From: Pseudomonadota bacterium
Lineage (GTDB): Bacteria; Desulfobacterota; Binatia; Binatales; Binataceae
Assembly (NCBI GenBank): GCA_021323945.1
Contig: JAJPKA010000017.1
Span: forward strand, 157,990-221,989
DNA length: 64,000 nucleotides
Direction: 5' to 3'
Every line of letters begins with the position of its first letter. Within the stretch, counting starts at the first letter, position 1. The notes beneath the pieces were generated by a model. That model saw nothing but the letters and a program-made list of their open reading frames with translations, did not search any database and had not been told where the DNA came from. Positions 29,494-34,555 of the stretch are shown piece by piece. The position numbers were made by a program, and so were the translations under genes.

Positions 29494-29952
29494 ATGAGAA
29501 TCAGTGAGAAAATCGAGGGCCTGTTTTTGCCGCGCAAGCGGATGGTGAATCGGTTGGCCGAGGTGGCTGCCGACGTGGAAACGCTTGCTTCCAACTTAAC
29601 CCGTCACGCTGAGATGTGCAGCTATTCCGGGATTCGAGCGAGTCTCAGTGAGCTAGCTGCGGCTGAGGCCCAGCAGGCCAACGCTATTCGCGAATTGTTG
29701 CTGCACGAAGGTATCTCGCTCGGGATGCATCAGAAACCGGTTAAAGAAGGGTCAAATAATTGGGAGCGGCTGCGGAATGACCTGGCGCTTCAGAGCAAAA
29801 TTCTACGTGCGCTCCATTCTCTATTCTCCGAATGGAGTGGAATAGACCCCCAAGTCGCCGAACGGTTGCGTGAGTGCGCCGTCGAAGAAGAGCGACGAAT
29901 AGAGCGACTCCGCGATTTAACCTTGCGCTGCGACCCGCAGGCGCTAGATTGA
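29494..29952 (+). CDS. Helical protein of unknown function
   Basis: I do not recognise this 152-residue protein. It is predicted almost wholly alpha-helical, with charged heptad-like stretches (RLAEVAADVETLASNL, AAAEAQQANAIREL, ERLRECAVEEERRIERL). The overall look is that of a ferritin-like or four-helix-bundle protein, but no metal-binding ExxH set is evident. It begins 34 bases after the drug exporter and may be co-transcribed with it. It ends at a strong hairpin. Confidence 0.75.
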   Translation: MRISEKIEGLFLPRKRMVNRLAEVAADVETLASNLTRHAEMCSYSGIRASLSELAAAEAQQANAIRELLLHEGISLGMHQKPVKEGSNNWERLRNDLALQSKILRALHSLFSEWSGIDPQVAERLRECAVEEERRIERLRDLTLRCDPQALD

Positions 29953-30012: not shown

Positions 30013-31206
30013 CTACTTGATCGCCAGTGCGTTGGGAGGTGAACCGACCCCTCCCGGAATATTCAATGGGGCGGAGGTGAAAAAGAATTCATAGCAGTTG
30101 TCATTGGCACAGTCGTCAGCCAATTCCTCGAGATTCCACATTTCACCGATAGGCATGCCGAAGAATGACAACATATGAAAATGGAGCAGGTCTCGAGCCT
30201 GCATGAAATCGGCGGCCTGCGGTGGTGGAATCGCTTCGAGCCCGGGCGAATCGGAACCAACCGCTGCGATATGCTGTTCCCACAGCCATCGCGCGGTCCG
30301 CTGCGAGCCCTCAAGTCCTGGTGACTTTGTGTCGCGAGCGAGTTCTGCTCTTTGGTCGTCGCTCATCGAAAGATAAGCCTTGGTCCAGCCTACTCGCACG
30401 AGCAAGATATCCCCGGGCCATACCTGCGTGCCCTGTGCCTCGAGGGTGGCCAGCAGATCTTCAAGCGGGATCACGTCATTGGTCGTACAGTCAAGATGTT
30501 TACCCTGCCGCTCGTAGTATCGAGCGACATCAGCAAGGATCCCGCGGCCGGCGATTCCGCGCCGCGCCAGATTATCGATGCCTAACTTGGAGCCCCCGTA
30601 GCCTGTTACTTGGTCGTCAGGGATGCCGTTGTAAGCGCCATATTGGGGGTGCTTGACGTGCGAGAGCGCATCCCATTGAGACGAGGCTTGTGGATAAAAG
30701 TTATCGAGATAGTCATCGAGGATGTAACTCGCGAAGCGTTTAATCTCGTGACGATGTTTGCCTCGCGTGAACAAGGGCGGGTCGGGAATGTTAATCGGCA
30801 AATTGAGTGCAAAGACTCTGCCTTTGCGAATGAACTTGGATGCCAGCACGACCCGCTCGGGGGTCAAAAGATTAATCGTGCCGAGTTGATCGTCGTTACC
30901 AAATACTCCCCATGCGGCACCGGCCGGCGCACCTTCGCGAATAGGCAACTGATCGTACGAAGGTACTTCTGCGGGAATCGGCCGAAGTTCCGGCGCGCTG
31001 ACTTGAGGTTGGCTGACAGGTTTGCGTGATCGCGCCTGCGGTCGCCTCGATGTCCTGCTGGAAACCATTTTCTTTAAGGCTTTGGCCTTGGGTCTGGGCA
31101 TTGCCTTCGCCTTGGGCATGGGCTTCTGCTTTGGCTTTGCCTTAGCCACTGTTCTGCTCCGCGCCGCAGCCTTCGGGGAGCGAGTCTTAGTCATCGTTTT
31201 GGCCAT
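30013..31206 (-). CDS. Cyclase-family (kynurenine-formamidase-like) hydrolase with a histone-like N-terminal tail
   Basis: Residues about 84-397 form a cyclase-family domain (PF04199 type): AWGVFGNDDQLGTINLL, then QWDALSH with Trp178, Asp179 and His183 as the probable metal site, and late blocks GSDSPGLEA and FFFTSAPL. Members hydrolyse N-formylkynurenine or related amides and esters. Residues 1-72 are unlike the family: 23 Lys/Arg in the first 62 residues, no acidic residue before Glu73, and repeated KAK/KPM/PRPK units as in histone H1. The ATG at 31206 has GGGGG at good spacing. No in-frame start codon exists between Met47 and the domain, so at least part of the tail must be translated. Confidence 0.9.
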   Translation of the reverse strand: MAKTMTKTRSPKAAARSRTVAKAKPKQKPMPKAKAMPRPKAKALKKMVSSRTSRRPQARSRKPVSQPQVSAPELRPIPAEVPSYDQLPIREGAPAGAAWGVFGNDDQLGTINLLTPERVVLASKFIRKGRVFALNLPINIPDPPLFTRGKHRHEIKRFASYILDDYLDNFYPQASSQWDALSHVKHPQYGAYNGIPDDQVTGYGGSKLGIDNLARRGIAGRGILADVARYYERQGKHLDCTTNDVIPLEDLLATLEAQGTQVWPGDILLVRVGWTKAYLSMSDDQRAELARDTKSPGLEGSQRTARWLWEQHIAAVGSDSPGLEAIPPPQAADFMQARDLLHFHMLSFFGMPIGEMWNLEELADDCANDNCYEFFFTSAPLNIPGGVGSPPNALAIK

Positions 31207-31261
31207 CGATTACCCCCGTAGCGATTTTCGACATCCGCTAACCATGCTTTCTTCTAAATAC

Positions 31262-31271
31262 TATCGCGATA
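31262..31271. promoter_or_regulatory. Short AT-rich palindrome between the cyclase gene and rpsF
   Basis: TATCGCGATA is a perfect 10-bp palindrome inside an AT-rich stretch (31245-31310) with several TATA-like boxes. It is the only promoter-like region in the 267-base gap between these divergent genes. An operator or promoter is plausible but not shown. Confidence 0.25.
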
Positions 31272-31436
31272 TACTATACAAGAGCCCCCTTTATATTGTT
31301 TTGACTATGCGCCCCGAGGGCTGACTGGCGAGCCCGAACCCCATGACCGTTTGCGCTGAACCACATCAGGGGAATAGCTAACTACGCCGCTTGTCAGGCT
31401 GAGATCCTCTTGGTAGCATCCTTGTGCTCCTTGCTC

Positions 31437-31473: not shown

Positions 31474-31974
31474 TTGCGCCGTTACGAGACAATCTTTATT
31501 CTCCGCACAGATCTCGGCGAATCAGTCCAGAAAGAGTCCATTCGGCGGTTCGAAAACATCATTCGAGCCAGTGGCGGTGAGATCATTGAGACCGACGAAT
31601 GGGGACTCCGTGACCTTGCCTATCCAATTAAAGGCGAACGTCGCGGGTATTACGTACGGCTGGATTACGGCGGCAACGGCGCCACGATGAACGAGATCGA
31701 GCGCAATCTGAAACTTTCCGACGGTGTCCTGCGCTTTCTTTCCGTGTTGGTTGACCGTGAGATCGACCCTGCGGCAGTTCGTGCTGATCTGGAAGCACAT
31801 CGTCGACGGAGTGCCGAGGCTCGCGCGGCGGCTGAAGCCGCTCGCGCCGCGGCCGAAACCTCCCATGCTGCTGGTGTCGATGCCACTCCCGAAGAGGAGC
31901 AGCCTGGCGCGGAGGAGGATCAGCTCGCAGGTGATTTGGAGACCACTGAGACATCGGGAGAAGGAGAGTCTTAG
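31474..31974 (+). CDS. rpsF: 30S ribosomal protein S6
   Basis: Small-subunit protein that pairs with S18 on the platform. The core (residues 1-100, RRYETIFILRTDL, WGLRDLAYPIKGERRGYY, RFLSVLVDRE) is typical. A C-terminal extension of about 60 residues rich in Ala and Glu brings the length to 166; acidic tails occur on S6 elsewhere. The start is TTG at 31474, eight bases after the near-perfect ribosome site AAAGGAGGTG. It heads the rpsF-rpsR-DUF2232-rplI cluster. Confidence 0.97.
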   Translation: MRRYETIFILRTDLGESVQKESIRRFENIIRASGGEIIETDEWGLRDLAYPIKGERRGYYVRLDYGGNGATMNEIERNLKLSDGVLRFLSVLVDREIDPAAVRADLEAHRRRSAEARAAAEAARAAAETSHAAGVDATPEEEQPGAEEDQLAGDLETTETSGEGES

Positions 31975-32113
31975 GTCGCTACGAGGGCAAATTGAAGTCT
32001 TGACGGGTGTTGAACTGGCTAGGTTGAAATTTGGCGATTGGATTGGCGAGGAGCTAACTCAAATTCGCTTTAGAACACGCCTTGGCTAGTCCTTTAACAA
32101 CCAAAAAACGAAG

Positions 32114-32443
32114 ATGGCCGATCAAGAATCCGATGAAGCCGTTGGCTTAGGTACGGAGATATCCGAATCGCGTGCTCAACGTGTCCGTAGCGAGGCTGAG
32201 AGCCGTGCACCGGGACGTCGGCGGCCAGGCGGACGCCGGAAAGTGTGCAGGTTCTGTGCCGACAAGACACTTGCGGTTGACTACAAGGATGTTCGAACGT
32301 TGGGAAGCTTTATTACCGAGGGAGGTAAGATCGTTCCTAGCAGAACTTCCGGCAACTGCGCCAAGCATCAAAGACAACTAGCAGTCGCGATAAAACGCGC
32401 ACGCATCCTGGCTTTGCTGCCATTCTCGACACTGGGACTCTGA
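32114..32443 (+). CDS. rpsR: 30S ribosomal protein S18 (zinc-binding type)
   Basis: Binds S6 on the 30S platform. It has the zinc-type ligand set Cys45, Cys48, Cys82 and His85 (CRFC and CAKH). The core from residue 43 (KVCRFCADK to [17 protein letters not shown]) is conserved. An Arg/Glu-rich extension of about 40 residues precedes it, giving 109 in all. The 139 bases between rpsF and rpsR hold no ssb gene, which often sits there. Confidence 0.97.
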
Positions 32444-32463
32444 CATCGAATCCGCCGCGTCTC

Positions 32464-33423
32464 GTGCGAGTAAGGAACATCGTGGCCATCGCTCGGGCAT
32501 CATTCGCATCAGCTTTGATGTTTTTGGCAGGGGCAACGGTGCCCCTCCTGGGCGGCGTCATAATGATCTTCGCGCCCGCTCCACTACTGACCTATGCGAC
32601 CGGTTTTCCCCATGCGCTTTCTCGCATTAGCATAGCAATTGCCGTGGCCACCTCGCTGGTGGCCTTGAGTGCCGGATTCGCACCGGCGCTCGGATATCTC
32701 GTCATCTTCGGCCTTGGCGCCGTATCTATGTGCTTCATGCTGCAGCGCAGGCTCGCGTTCGAATTGATCGTCTTCGGGGTAACCATGTTGCTGGTGGCAG
32801 CGGGAGTAGTTTTGGCGTTGCTCTGGGCTGGTTCCTTCGATGCGCTGGCGCATCTAATCCGTCGTGAACTAGCGGGGGCAATGGCTTGGGCGGAGGGGTT
32901 CTACAAGGATTTGGGTGTCGAGACCGCACTTACCCCCGAAAGCCGCGCCTATATTTTGGAGACGGCCAAGTGGTTAGCGCCGGCTCTAAGCGTGATGCTG
33001 GTAGCGCTGATGGTTTTGCTCAATTTAGCAGTCTTTTGGCGACTGACCGGAAAGGAGCAGCGGGTTGGCTACGCTCTCTTCGGCGACCTAGCACGATGGT
33101 CTGCACCAGAGTGGTTGGTGTGGCCCTTATTGGTTAGCGGATTCGGGTGGTTTATTCCAATCCAATGGATTGCTAATGTCGCTTTAGATTGCTTTCTTTG
33201 TATAATGGCGGTTTATCTTGGTCAAGGGTTTGCCATAATGGCGTTCTACTTTAGACATTTAAGAATGCCGGCGCTTGCGCGAGGCTTGATTTATTTTGTC
33301 ACAATGGCTCAACCGCTCTTAGTTGGTCTGACTGCGATCGTTGGTCTTTTTGATCTATGGTTCGATTTCCGCCGTTTGAAGGGTCCTGATGCGGCGACTC
33401 GCAACGTGGGAAATTTCTTGTAA
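32464..33423 (+). CDS. DUF2232 membrane protein
   Basis: Integral membrane protein of 319 residues with about eight hydrophobic segments, of the YybS/DUF2232 type. Such genes are often found between rpsR and rplI, exactly as here. The start is a GTG at 32464, 20 bases after rpsR. The function of the family is unknown. Paired position with two ribosomal genes implies co-transcription. Confidence 0.85.
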   Translation: MRVRNIVAIARASFASALMFLAGATVPLLGGVIMIFAPAPLLTYATGFPHALSRISIAIAVATSLVALSAGFAPALGYLVIFGLGAVSMCFMLQRRLAFELIVFGVTMLLVAAGVVLALLWAGSFDALAHLIRRELAGAMAWAEGFYKDLGVETALTPESRAYILETAKWLAPALSVMLVALMVLLNLAVFWRLTGKEQRVGYALFGDLARWSAPEWLVWPLLVSGFGWFIPIQWIANVALDCFLCIMAVYLGQGFAIMAFYFRHLRMPALARGLIYFVTMAQPLLVGLTAIVGLFDLWFDFRRLKGPDAATRNVGNFL

Positions 33424-33447
33424 GAATAAAGCGTCCGTGAGGCAGGG

Positions 33448-33903
33448 ATGAACGTCCAAGTAATCCTAAATGAGGATTTGCCGAACTTGGGACGCCCGGG
33501 AGACGTGGTCAAAGTGCGTGCAGGCTATGCTCGTAATTATTTGCTGCCGCGCAAGCTCGCTGTCGAAGCAAATCCACGCAATCTTCGGGCCTTTGAACAT
33601 CAGAAGCGGCTGGCGATGGCGAAGAGGGAGGCTCTGCGAGCCCAAGCCATGAGCCAAAAGGAAAGGATCGAAGCGCTGCATCTAAAACTGACTGCTCATG
33701 CAGGTGAGGAAGGTAAGTTATTCGGTTCCGTCACCAACCTCGACCTTGAACGTGCGCTGCATCAACATGGCTTTGTCGTTGACAGGCGCCGAATTCTATT
33801 AACGGAACCAATCAAACAGCTCGGAGACTATAGTGTAACGATTAGGCTGCAGCCCGAAGTGGATGCCAAGTTAAAGTTCAGCGTTATTGCCTCGACCGAT
33901 TGA
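33448..33903 (+). CDS. rplI: 50S ribosomal protein L9
   Basis: Elongated 151-residue large-subunit protein. The N-terminal rRNA-binding domain (MNVQVILNEDLPNLGRPGDVVKV, then YARNYLLPRKLA), the long connecting helix and the C-terminal domain (GKLFGSVTN to GDYSVTIRL) are all intact. It ends the ribosomal cluster. Confidence 0.98.
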   Translation: MNVQVILNEDLPNLGRPGDVVKVRAGYARNYLLPRKLAVEANPRNLRAFEHQKRLAMAKREALRAQAMSQKERIEALHLKLTAHAGEEGKLFGSVTNLDLERALHQHGFVVDRRRILLTEPIKQLGDYSVTIRLQPEVDAKLKFSVIASTD

Positions 33904-33919
33904 ACCGCCGATAAAAAAG

Positions 33920-34555
33920 ATGAAGCTTTATGACTTCCTACCTTGCCCGTTCGGCCAGAAAGTGCGAATTGTGCTGGCCGAAAAGGGCCTTTCCTACGAG
34001 CTTGTTGAGATTGATCTCACTCAAGGTGACCAACGACGACCCGAATTCAGGCGTCTAAACCCCTTCGGGCGTGTTCCCGTCCTGGTCGATGAAGACACGA
34101 CAGTCTATGACTCAACCATTATCGCCGAATATCTCGAAGACGAATATCCTGAGCCACCGCTCTTGCCGGCAGTCGGTTCGAGCGCCCTGCGGGCCTTGGC
34201 GAGGACGTGGGAGGATATTGCTGATACGTCCTTTACGGTTCAAGTTGGCCAGCTGATGCTTGAAATGAGCAAGCCCGAGGGCGAGCGCGACGCCAATCGG
34301 ATCCAACGCTTGCAGCAATGGATTGAGCAGATGCTCACGTTTTTGAACCATCAACTTCAGGGTCAGGATTTTTTGGCCTCCCAATTCTCGGTGGCAGACA
34401 TTGGCTTCGTGCCGCGTTTGCTCATTTTGAAGGAATTGGGCCTGGACCCGGCGGCCAATCGAGGCAATATCGATGGTTGGATAAAGCGCATGCTTGAGCG
34501 GCCCAGCATCCAAAATTTGCAAGGTGTTACAGTCCAGCCGATAGCCGGAATATAA
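33920..34555 (+). CDS. Glutathione S-transferase family protein
   Basis: Two-domain GST-like protein, 211 residues from the ATG at 33920. The thioredoxin-like N-domain has DFLPCPFGQKVRI, with Cys in the position used by beta/omega-class or CPxC-related members, and NPFGRVPVL and DSTIIAEYL for glutathione contact. The all-helical C-domain includes FSVADI. An earlier start at 33887 would overlap rplI and is less likely. It may be co-transcribed with rplI, but a functional link is not evident. Confidence 0.9.
   Translation: MKLYDFLPCPFGQKVRIVLAEKGLSYELVEIDLTQGDQRRPEFRRLNPFGRVPVLVDEDTTVYDSTIIAEYLEDEYPEPPLLPAVGSSALRALARTWEDIADTSFTVQVGQLMLEMSKPEGERDANRIQRLQQWIEQMLTFLNHQLQGQDFLASQFSVADIGFVPRLLILKELGLDPAANRGNIDGWIKRMLERPSIQNLQGVTVQPIAGI

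Follow-up and report, generated by a model that had tools for sequence, protein, structure and literature searches.

To our knowledge, the bacterial proteins that carry polycationic disordered tails are mainly those that organise chromatin or granules. AlgP of Pseudomonas carries a tail rich in Lys, Pro and Ala that is needed for the spacing of polyphosphate granules, and a fragment of this tail and KPAA peptides bind DNA; the tail of PhaF is thought to bind DNA as well (available text of PMC9239181). As given in the same text, both tails are C-terminal and sit on proteins with helical N-terminal parts, and the KPAA repeat region of AlgP comprises 154 residues. Among hydrolases of the cyclase family (PF04199), MGS0169 was described as a metal-stimulated esterase from a metagenome with detectable isatin hydrolase activity, in which the classical metal site has Gln in place of its first two His; crystal contacts gave a tetramer, and gel filtration a trimer or tight tetramer (available text of PMC5341072). 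The metal motif of the isatin hydrolase/KynB type is HxG[T/A]HxDxPxH (available text of PMC6117287). The gene described here, located in a window of 64,000 nucleotides (the whole stretch of DNA that was analysed), joins a tail resembling the former proteins to an enzyme resembling the latter (Table 1).

Table 1. Positions of the tailed cyclase gene, its parts and adjoining features in the window.
Feature	Position	Strand	Basis
PF04199 cyclase-family hydrolase gene with basic N-terminal tail	30013..31206	-	397-aa ORF, ATG start
Tail, residues 1-78: basic, H1-like, predicted to be disordered	30973..31206	-	Composition, pLDDT, presence in 26/26 orthologs with intact 5' end
Hydrolase body, residues 79-397	30013..30972	-	Alignments, structure match, active-site residues from the available text of PMC5341072
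Shine-Dalgarno-like run CGGGGGT (coding strand) ahead of the ATG	31212..31218	-	Sequence
24-nt tandem duplication, 75% identical, within the tail coding sequence	31079..31126		Sequence repeat
Divergent neighbours rpsF, rpsR, DUF2232, rplI, GST	31474..34555	+	Pfam; conserved context

Enzyme body and tail of the window protein

The PF04199 profile matched residues 170-324 (E 1.1e-14, 55.3 bits against a gathering score of 23.1). An AlphaFold model built with 43 aligned sequences was confident from about residue 81 onward, apart from loops around 140-148 and 333-337. Compared with solved structures, its body matched 5ibz_D best (Z 33.9 over 266 residues, 38% identity), 5IBZ being MGS0169, and shared its fold with isatin hydrolases and the kynurenine formamidase KynB (Z 15.3-17.7); the swivelling beta/alpha/beta fold of PF04199 was thus recovered at Z 33.9 to 15.3. 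Residues of MGS0169 were mapped by counting on the printed alignment, where chain index and published number were offset by 18 at all seven positions. Q127/Q131/D133/H137, R87, H286 and E299 of MGS0169 correspond to Q173/Q177/D179/H183, R148, H342 and E355, so that all seven motif and substrate-binding residues are kept; in 43 aligned rows D179, H183 and H342 were invariant and the other four pocket positions were conserved in at least 90%. The window protein therefore carries the Gln motif Q-x-x-x-Q-x-D-x-x-x-H together with the pocket Arg, His and Glu. At residues 173-183 it reads QASSQWDALSH, in place of the HxG[T/A]HxDxPxH site: where isatin hydrolase and KynB have His-x-x-x-His-x-Asp-x-x-x-His, the first two His are Gln. 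The protein is predicted to be metal-dependent and to belong to the Gln-motif (MGS0169-like) group of PF04199, and is likely to be an active hydrolase. It differs from MGS0169 at the N terminus, since the 323-residue PDB chain has no partner for window residues 1-98 and the alignment starts at chain residue 20.

Residues 1-78 comprise 14 Lys, 10 Arg, 12 Ala, 12 Pro and a single acid (Glu73), for a net charge of +23. The most positive 62-residue stretch was determined for each of 51 window ORFs (100 aa or longer, non-overlapping); the cyclase ranked first (+23), followed by two ORFs at +12. Residues 1-80 were predicted to be disordered (pLDDT block means 41-51). The original prediction had counted 23 Lys/Arg in the first 62 residues and no Asp or Glu before residue 73, both correctly. 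Of the units that it called repeated, KAK occurs three times; KPM and PRPK occur once each and so are not repeated units. Its boundary, a 72-residue tail with the domain from residue 73, has to be moved, as the folded domain of the AlphaFold model begins near residue 81. Besides the 24-nt duplication, which suggests how changes in tail length may arise, a second 12-nt pair was found; the window tail has no regular repeat and nothing of the KPAA type. Four tails searched against Pfam at E up to 1 gave no family. With neither a Pfam match (four tails) nor a regular repeat (window tail), the tail does not appear assignable to a described tail family. It resembles those of AlgP and PhaF in being rich in Lys, Ala and Pro and strongly positive, and that of AlgP also in being disordered by prediction. 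Unlike them, the cyclase tails are N-terminal, 35-106 residues long, 11% Arg and attached to an enzyme.

Further tails of this kind were sought in the same genome. A general habit of Lys-rich tails was rejected, since a search with the tail alone returned itself and one match at E 0.2, and the DNA pattern for K[AP]K[AP]K occurred at 6 places, fewer than in the reversed control (17), with the cyclase as the only N-terminal tail of this kind. An HU protein with such a tail was likewise not found in the two of five HU matches that were read, neither of which carries a K/A/P tail. These searches within the genome are consistent with the earlier statement that such tails are not usual on metabolic hydrolases. 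A literature search (titles and abstract openings) returned no report of such a tail-hydrolase fusion; tail and enzyme are each of a known kind, and it is their combination for which no report was found in the literature searched. Outside the window, a 72-aa frame with PRARGGEP-type repeats (L077; G000 contig C21 near 4968) was noted, whose sequence suggests a translated CRISPR-type array.

Orthologs and history of the tail

Orthologs were collected at E 1e-100 or better and were found in 27 of 41 genomes of Candidatus Binataceae (9/17 genera), the orthologs proper being 27 distinct sequences with a domain identity of at least 60%. Among named records, the best protein match (81% identity) was in JAMXLL010000083.1, 'Candidatus Binataceae bacterium'. 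Domain anchors were placed from HSPs (79 to 84 by row; 99 for L003 and L005). The 27th ortholog locus (L043), cut by a contig edge, was excluded from Shine-Dalgarno, tree and pooled counts, and the split, distant L006/L007 from the tree and charge tables; contig C4 contributes one of its two tandem paralogs, since L004 and L003 resolved to a single gene.

The fusion proved to be shared. A K/R/A/P-rich tail stands at the start of 26/26 orthologs with an intact 5' end and is present across the nine genera having the gene. Tail length ranged from 35 to 106 residues (median 76.5) and net charge from +11 to +27 (n=26), the shortest tail (35 residues, +11) being found in genus g4 (L027). Relatives whose gene starts behind the tail, which the original prediction had named as a refuting case, do not occur within the ortholog clade; such starts were confined to relatives at 53% domain identity or less (n=18), of which 16 have an ATG 1 to 9 codons ahead of the aligned domain. 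In L003 and L005, distant paralogs from the window's own genome, the ATG lies 19 codons before an alignment that itself starts only at residue 99. The ribosome site at the near-domain start was weak (run of 2 or 3) in 3/18 tail-less relatives (L033, L060, L071). Two of the 27 genomes (G004 and G028) carry a second, tail-less copy each (L070, L071; 52-53% identity). Wider searches were run at E 1e-90 against 148 genomes of the class, with at most 12 candidates scored per genome, and at E 1e-85 against 395 phylum-level genomes, with at most 4; at least 27 and at least 6 genomes matched, respectively, those found all belonging to this family. In G014, the one non-tail owner among the E 1e-85 matches found, the match begins at residue 80. 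Plasmid records gave 151 matches, the best 10 of which begin at residue 62 or later.

In a tree of 44 domain sequences a single branch separated all 26 tail rows from the other sequences, with one change (92% of bootstrap trees). Support for this branch, 93/80, lies just below the star of the tree tool (95/80); long-branch warnings concerned outgroups. This topology fits a single gain of the tail in an ancestor within Candidatus Binataceae, the simplest history.

Pooled tails of the 26 orthologs (1812 residues) contained 21% Lys, 11% Arg, 27% Ala, 13% Pro and 1.5% Asp plus Glu, with 1% Leu and 2% Ile; Phe, Tyr, Trp and Cys were absent. The H1-like composition noted at the outset (rich in Lys, Ala and Pro, few acids) thus extends to the pooled ortholog tails, and disorder, the other mark of H1-like tails, is present by prediction. 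The longest Pro-free stretch measured 8-26 residues in 24/26 tails and 52 in L020 and L052. In these two g15 loci (L052:2865-4097 and L020:1360-2625) the stretch separates the basic tail from the enzyme, and in L052 it was predicted with moderate confidence as one 47-residue helix (46-92). As read from its sequence, L015 keeps what look like only the two ends of this stretch, as if most had been deleted, which argues that the helix is not essential.

Neighbouring genes and possible roles of the tail

Flanking genes were compared for 26 orthologs with enough flank, the cut locus L043 being omitted. A divergent rpsF lies upstream of the cyclase in 23/26, the three exceptions being the g4 genomes, and rpsR, DUF2232, rplI and a GST-like gene follow beyond rpsF as far as the fetched flanks extend. 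In 20/20 complete copies beside a tailed cyclase, the S6 protein encoded by rpsF (31474-31974, + in the window) ends in an acidic C-terminal extension; measured from residue 98 of the window copy of S6, it comprises 62-100 residues, 14-20 of them acidic. In rpsR (32114-32443, +; 109 residues) the match to the S18 domain does not begin until residue 52 and is preceded by about 50 charged residues. A 152-aa ORF convergent with the cyclase (29494-29952, +) has no Pfam match, and a relative occupies the same place in the genome of a genus mate (L037). A tRNA search across the window returned none.

We consider it somewhat probable that this singly gained, disordered K/R/A/P tail provides a Gln-motif hydrolase with the arms of a tetramer, by which the enzyme is tethered to a polyanion, most likely nucleic acid. 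The enzyme would form a tetramer like MGS0169 and would thus present four arms of about +23 each. These arms would bind the polyanion non-specifically, by avidity. Nucleic acid (nucleoid DNA, RNA or ribosomes) would be the most likely partner, because it is always present and because a tail conserved in composition alone suits non-specific binding. The tail would hold the enzyme there and take no part in catalysis. If this is right, it would work like the tails of AlgP and PhaF. A tail on a small-molecule hydrolase in which charge rather than sequence is selected suggests that metabolism is targeted in space through non-specific electrostatics, and within the little characterised Gln-motif PF04199 group it offers a clue to where one member acts.

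The body of the protein is more acidic in tail owners (median net charge -11) than in tail-less relatives (median -6). The tail might thus act for its own protein, a possibility that was counted against tethering to nucleic acid. It might neutralise the acidic body, aid assembly or solubility, or dock on an acidic partner, for which the extended S6 encoded by the divergent rpsF would be a candidate. We regard action within or between proteins as rather unlikely. MGS0169, with at most about 37 residues before the aligned part, is tetrameric nonetheless (available text of PMC5341072); tail-less relatives (L030, L033, L059) have bodies as acidic as -12 and -19; and a tail of +23 overshoots the charge of the body, leaving 26/27 whole proteins net positive, with the cut row L043 as the exception.

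Anchoring to a storage granule of polyphosphate or polyhydroxyalkanoate, which AlgP and PhaF tails help to place, is a little less plausible still. AlgP with its KPAA tail localises to polyphosphate granules (available text of PMC9239181), the window's genome carries PhaC and PPK1, and the long Pro-free stretch of the two g15 orthologs, one of them with the predicted helix, lies between tail and enzyme. With presence of PhaC cut at E below 1e-20 and G057 (fragments only) scored absent, PhaC was found in 20/27 tail genomes and 5/14 others (p 0.023, uncorrected for kinship), a weak association. PPK1, found in 22/27 tail genomes, was equally common without the tail (11/14, p 1.0). Three g4 genomes have the tail and no PhaC match better than 1e-5, and one 94%-complete tail genome in about 180 contigs (G011) gave no match to PPK1, PhaC or PPK2, the last of which was searched in five genomes; this makes either granule a weaker target than nucleic acid. 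The conserved neighbourhood allows a further picture, which we regard as speculative and improbable: a ribosome- or nucleoid-tethered small-molecule hydrolase whose tail would sit on rRNA or on the acidic S6 extension, which would cleave a metabolite or adduct at the translation machinery, and whose gene would be kept by rpsF-rpsR-rplI for joint control.

Polybasic stretches can bind membranes, and by binding anionic lipids the tail could make the protein a peripheral membrane enzyme. The best 18-residue helical hydrophobic moment exceeded 0.6 in 8/26 tails, mostly due to Arg and Lys, and the predicted helix of L052 follows the basic part. A membrane role is nevertheless very doubtful: the pooled tails, with no aromatic residue and little Leu or Ile, offer nothing obvious to insert in a bilayer, and Pro interrupts all but two of them at the short intervals given above.

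Selection on the tail and its translation

Rates of change were determined separately for tail and body. Tail dN/dS was 0.18-0.65 and below 1 in 12/12 pairs, which are not all independent; body dN/dS was 0.04-0.33 in the 11 computable pairs, the synonymous sites of the window pair (L001/L008) being saturated. The tail evolved faster than the body in 10/11 comparable pairs, the exception (L015/L018) having the lower value in the tail. Single-base amino-acid differences in the tail were then counted in nine pairs whose paths through the domain tree do not overlap, with columns taken from a BLOSUM-based alignment. Under a simple mutation model, 0/71 differences involved Asp or Glu against 5.3 expected (p 0.004) and 11/71 altered the charge class against 19.7 expected (p 0.011), both p-values being somewhat generous since the alignment favours conservative pairings. 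Judged by these sequence comparisons, the positive charge of the tail is under selection, while its sequence and length drift. Alternatively, slippage at repeated K/A/P codons could have produced the tail, which would then persist only because it is harmless, as the 24-nt duplication in the window tail, the wide range of lengths and a tail dN/dS mostly above that of the body would allow. Retention across nine genera, without exception among orthologs whose 5' end is intact, dN/dS below 1 in all pairs, dependent ones included, and the exclusion of acid residues make slippage alone quite improbable.

Starts of the orthologs were chosen from the encoded peptide, as the first ATG/GTG/TTG after which Ala and then Lys, Thr or Arg are encoded, the ribosome site not being used. 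Shine-Dalgarno runs of at least 5 bases against AGGAGG, G being allowed for A, preceded 21/26 tail starts, 0/52 internal tail starts and 7/377 ATG/GTG/TTG codons of the domain, and a full-length AGGAGG-type run stood ahead of the tail start in 14/26 orthologs. In the window gene the CGGGGGT run is acceptable as the ribosome site proposed earlier for the first ATG; it is weak, matching AGGAGG over 5 bases only when G may stand for A. In-frame ATG/GTG/TTG codons of the window gene are 1, 5, 20, 30, 36 and 47, with none from there to the domain anchor at 79, as the original prediction had it, and 18/26 orthologs, the window gene among them, have no start codon within 15 codons of the domain. In 9/12 tail pairs, differences were most numerous at the third codon position of the sense frame. 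The tail is thus part of the protein, being present in 26/26 orthologs with an intact 5' end, with ribosome sites at most tail starts and at no internal ones, and the claim that at least part of it must be made is borne out. A mis-called start, with an untranslated tail and a true start near the domain, is barely credible and was rejected: the weak ribosome site of the window gene and the 8/26 orthologs in which an in-frame ATG/GTG/TTG lies no more than 15 codons from the domain are outweighed by the start-codon, Shine-Dalgarno and third-position counts, and tail-less starts are confined to distant relatives.

A hydrophobic antisense gene of 100 aa overlapping the tail (31022-31324, +) was also considered. 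Across the full length of the tail, no antisense frame stays open in the window gene (L001) or its genus mate (L008), but each of the remaining 25/27 rows has one or more open antisense frames, so openness alone is not decisive. The antisense gene was ruled out by the ribosome sites of the sense strand together with the third-position excess (9/12), which decide for the sense frame.
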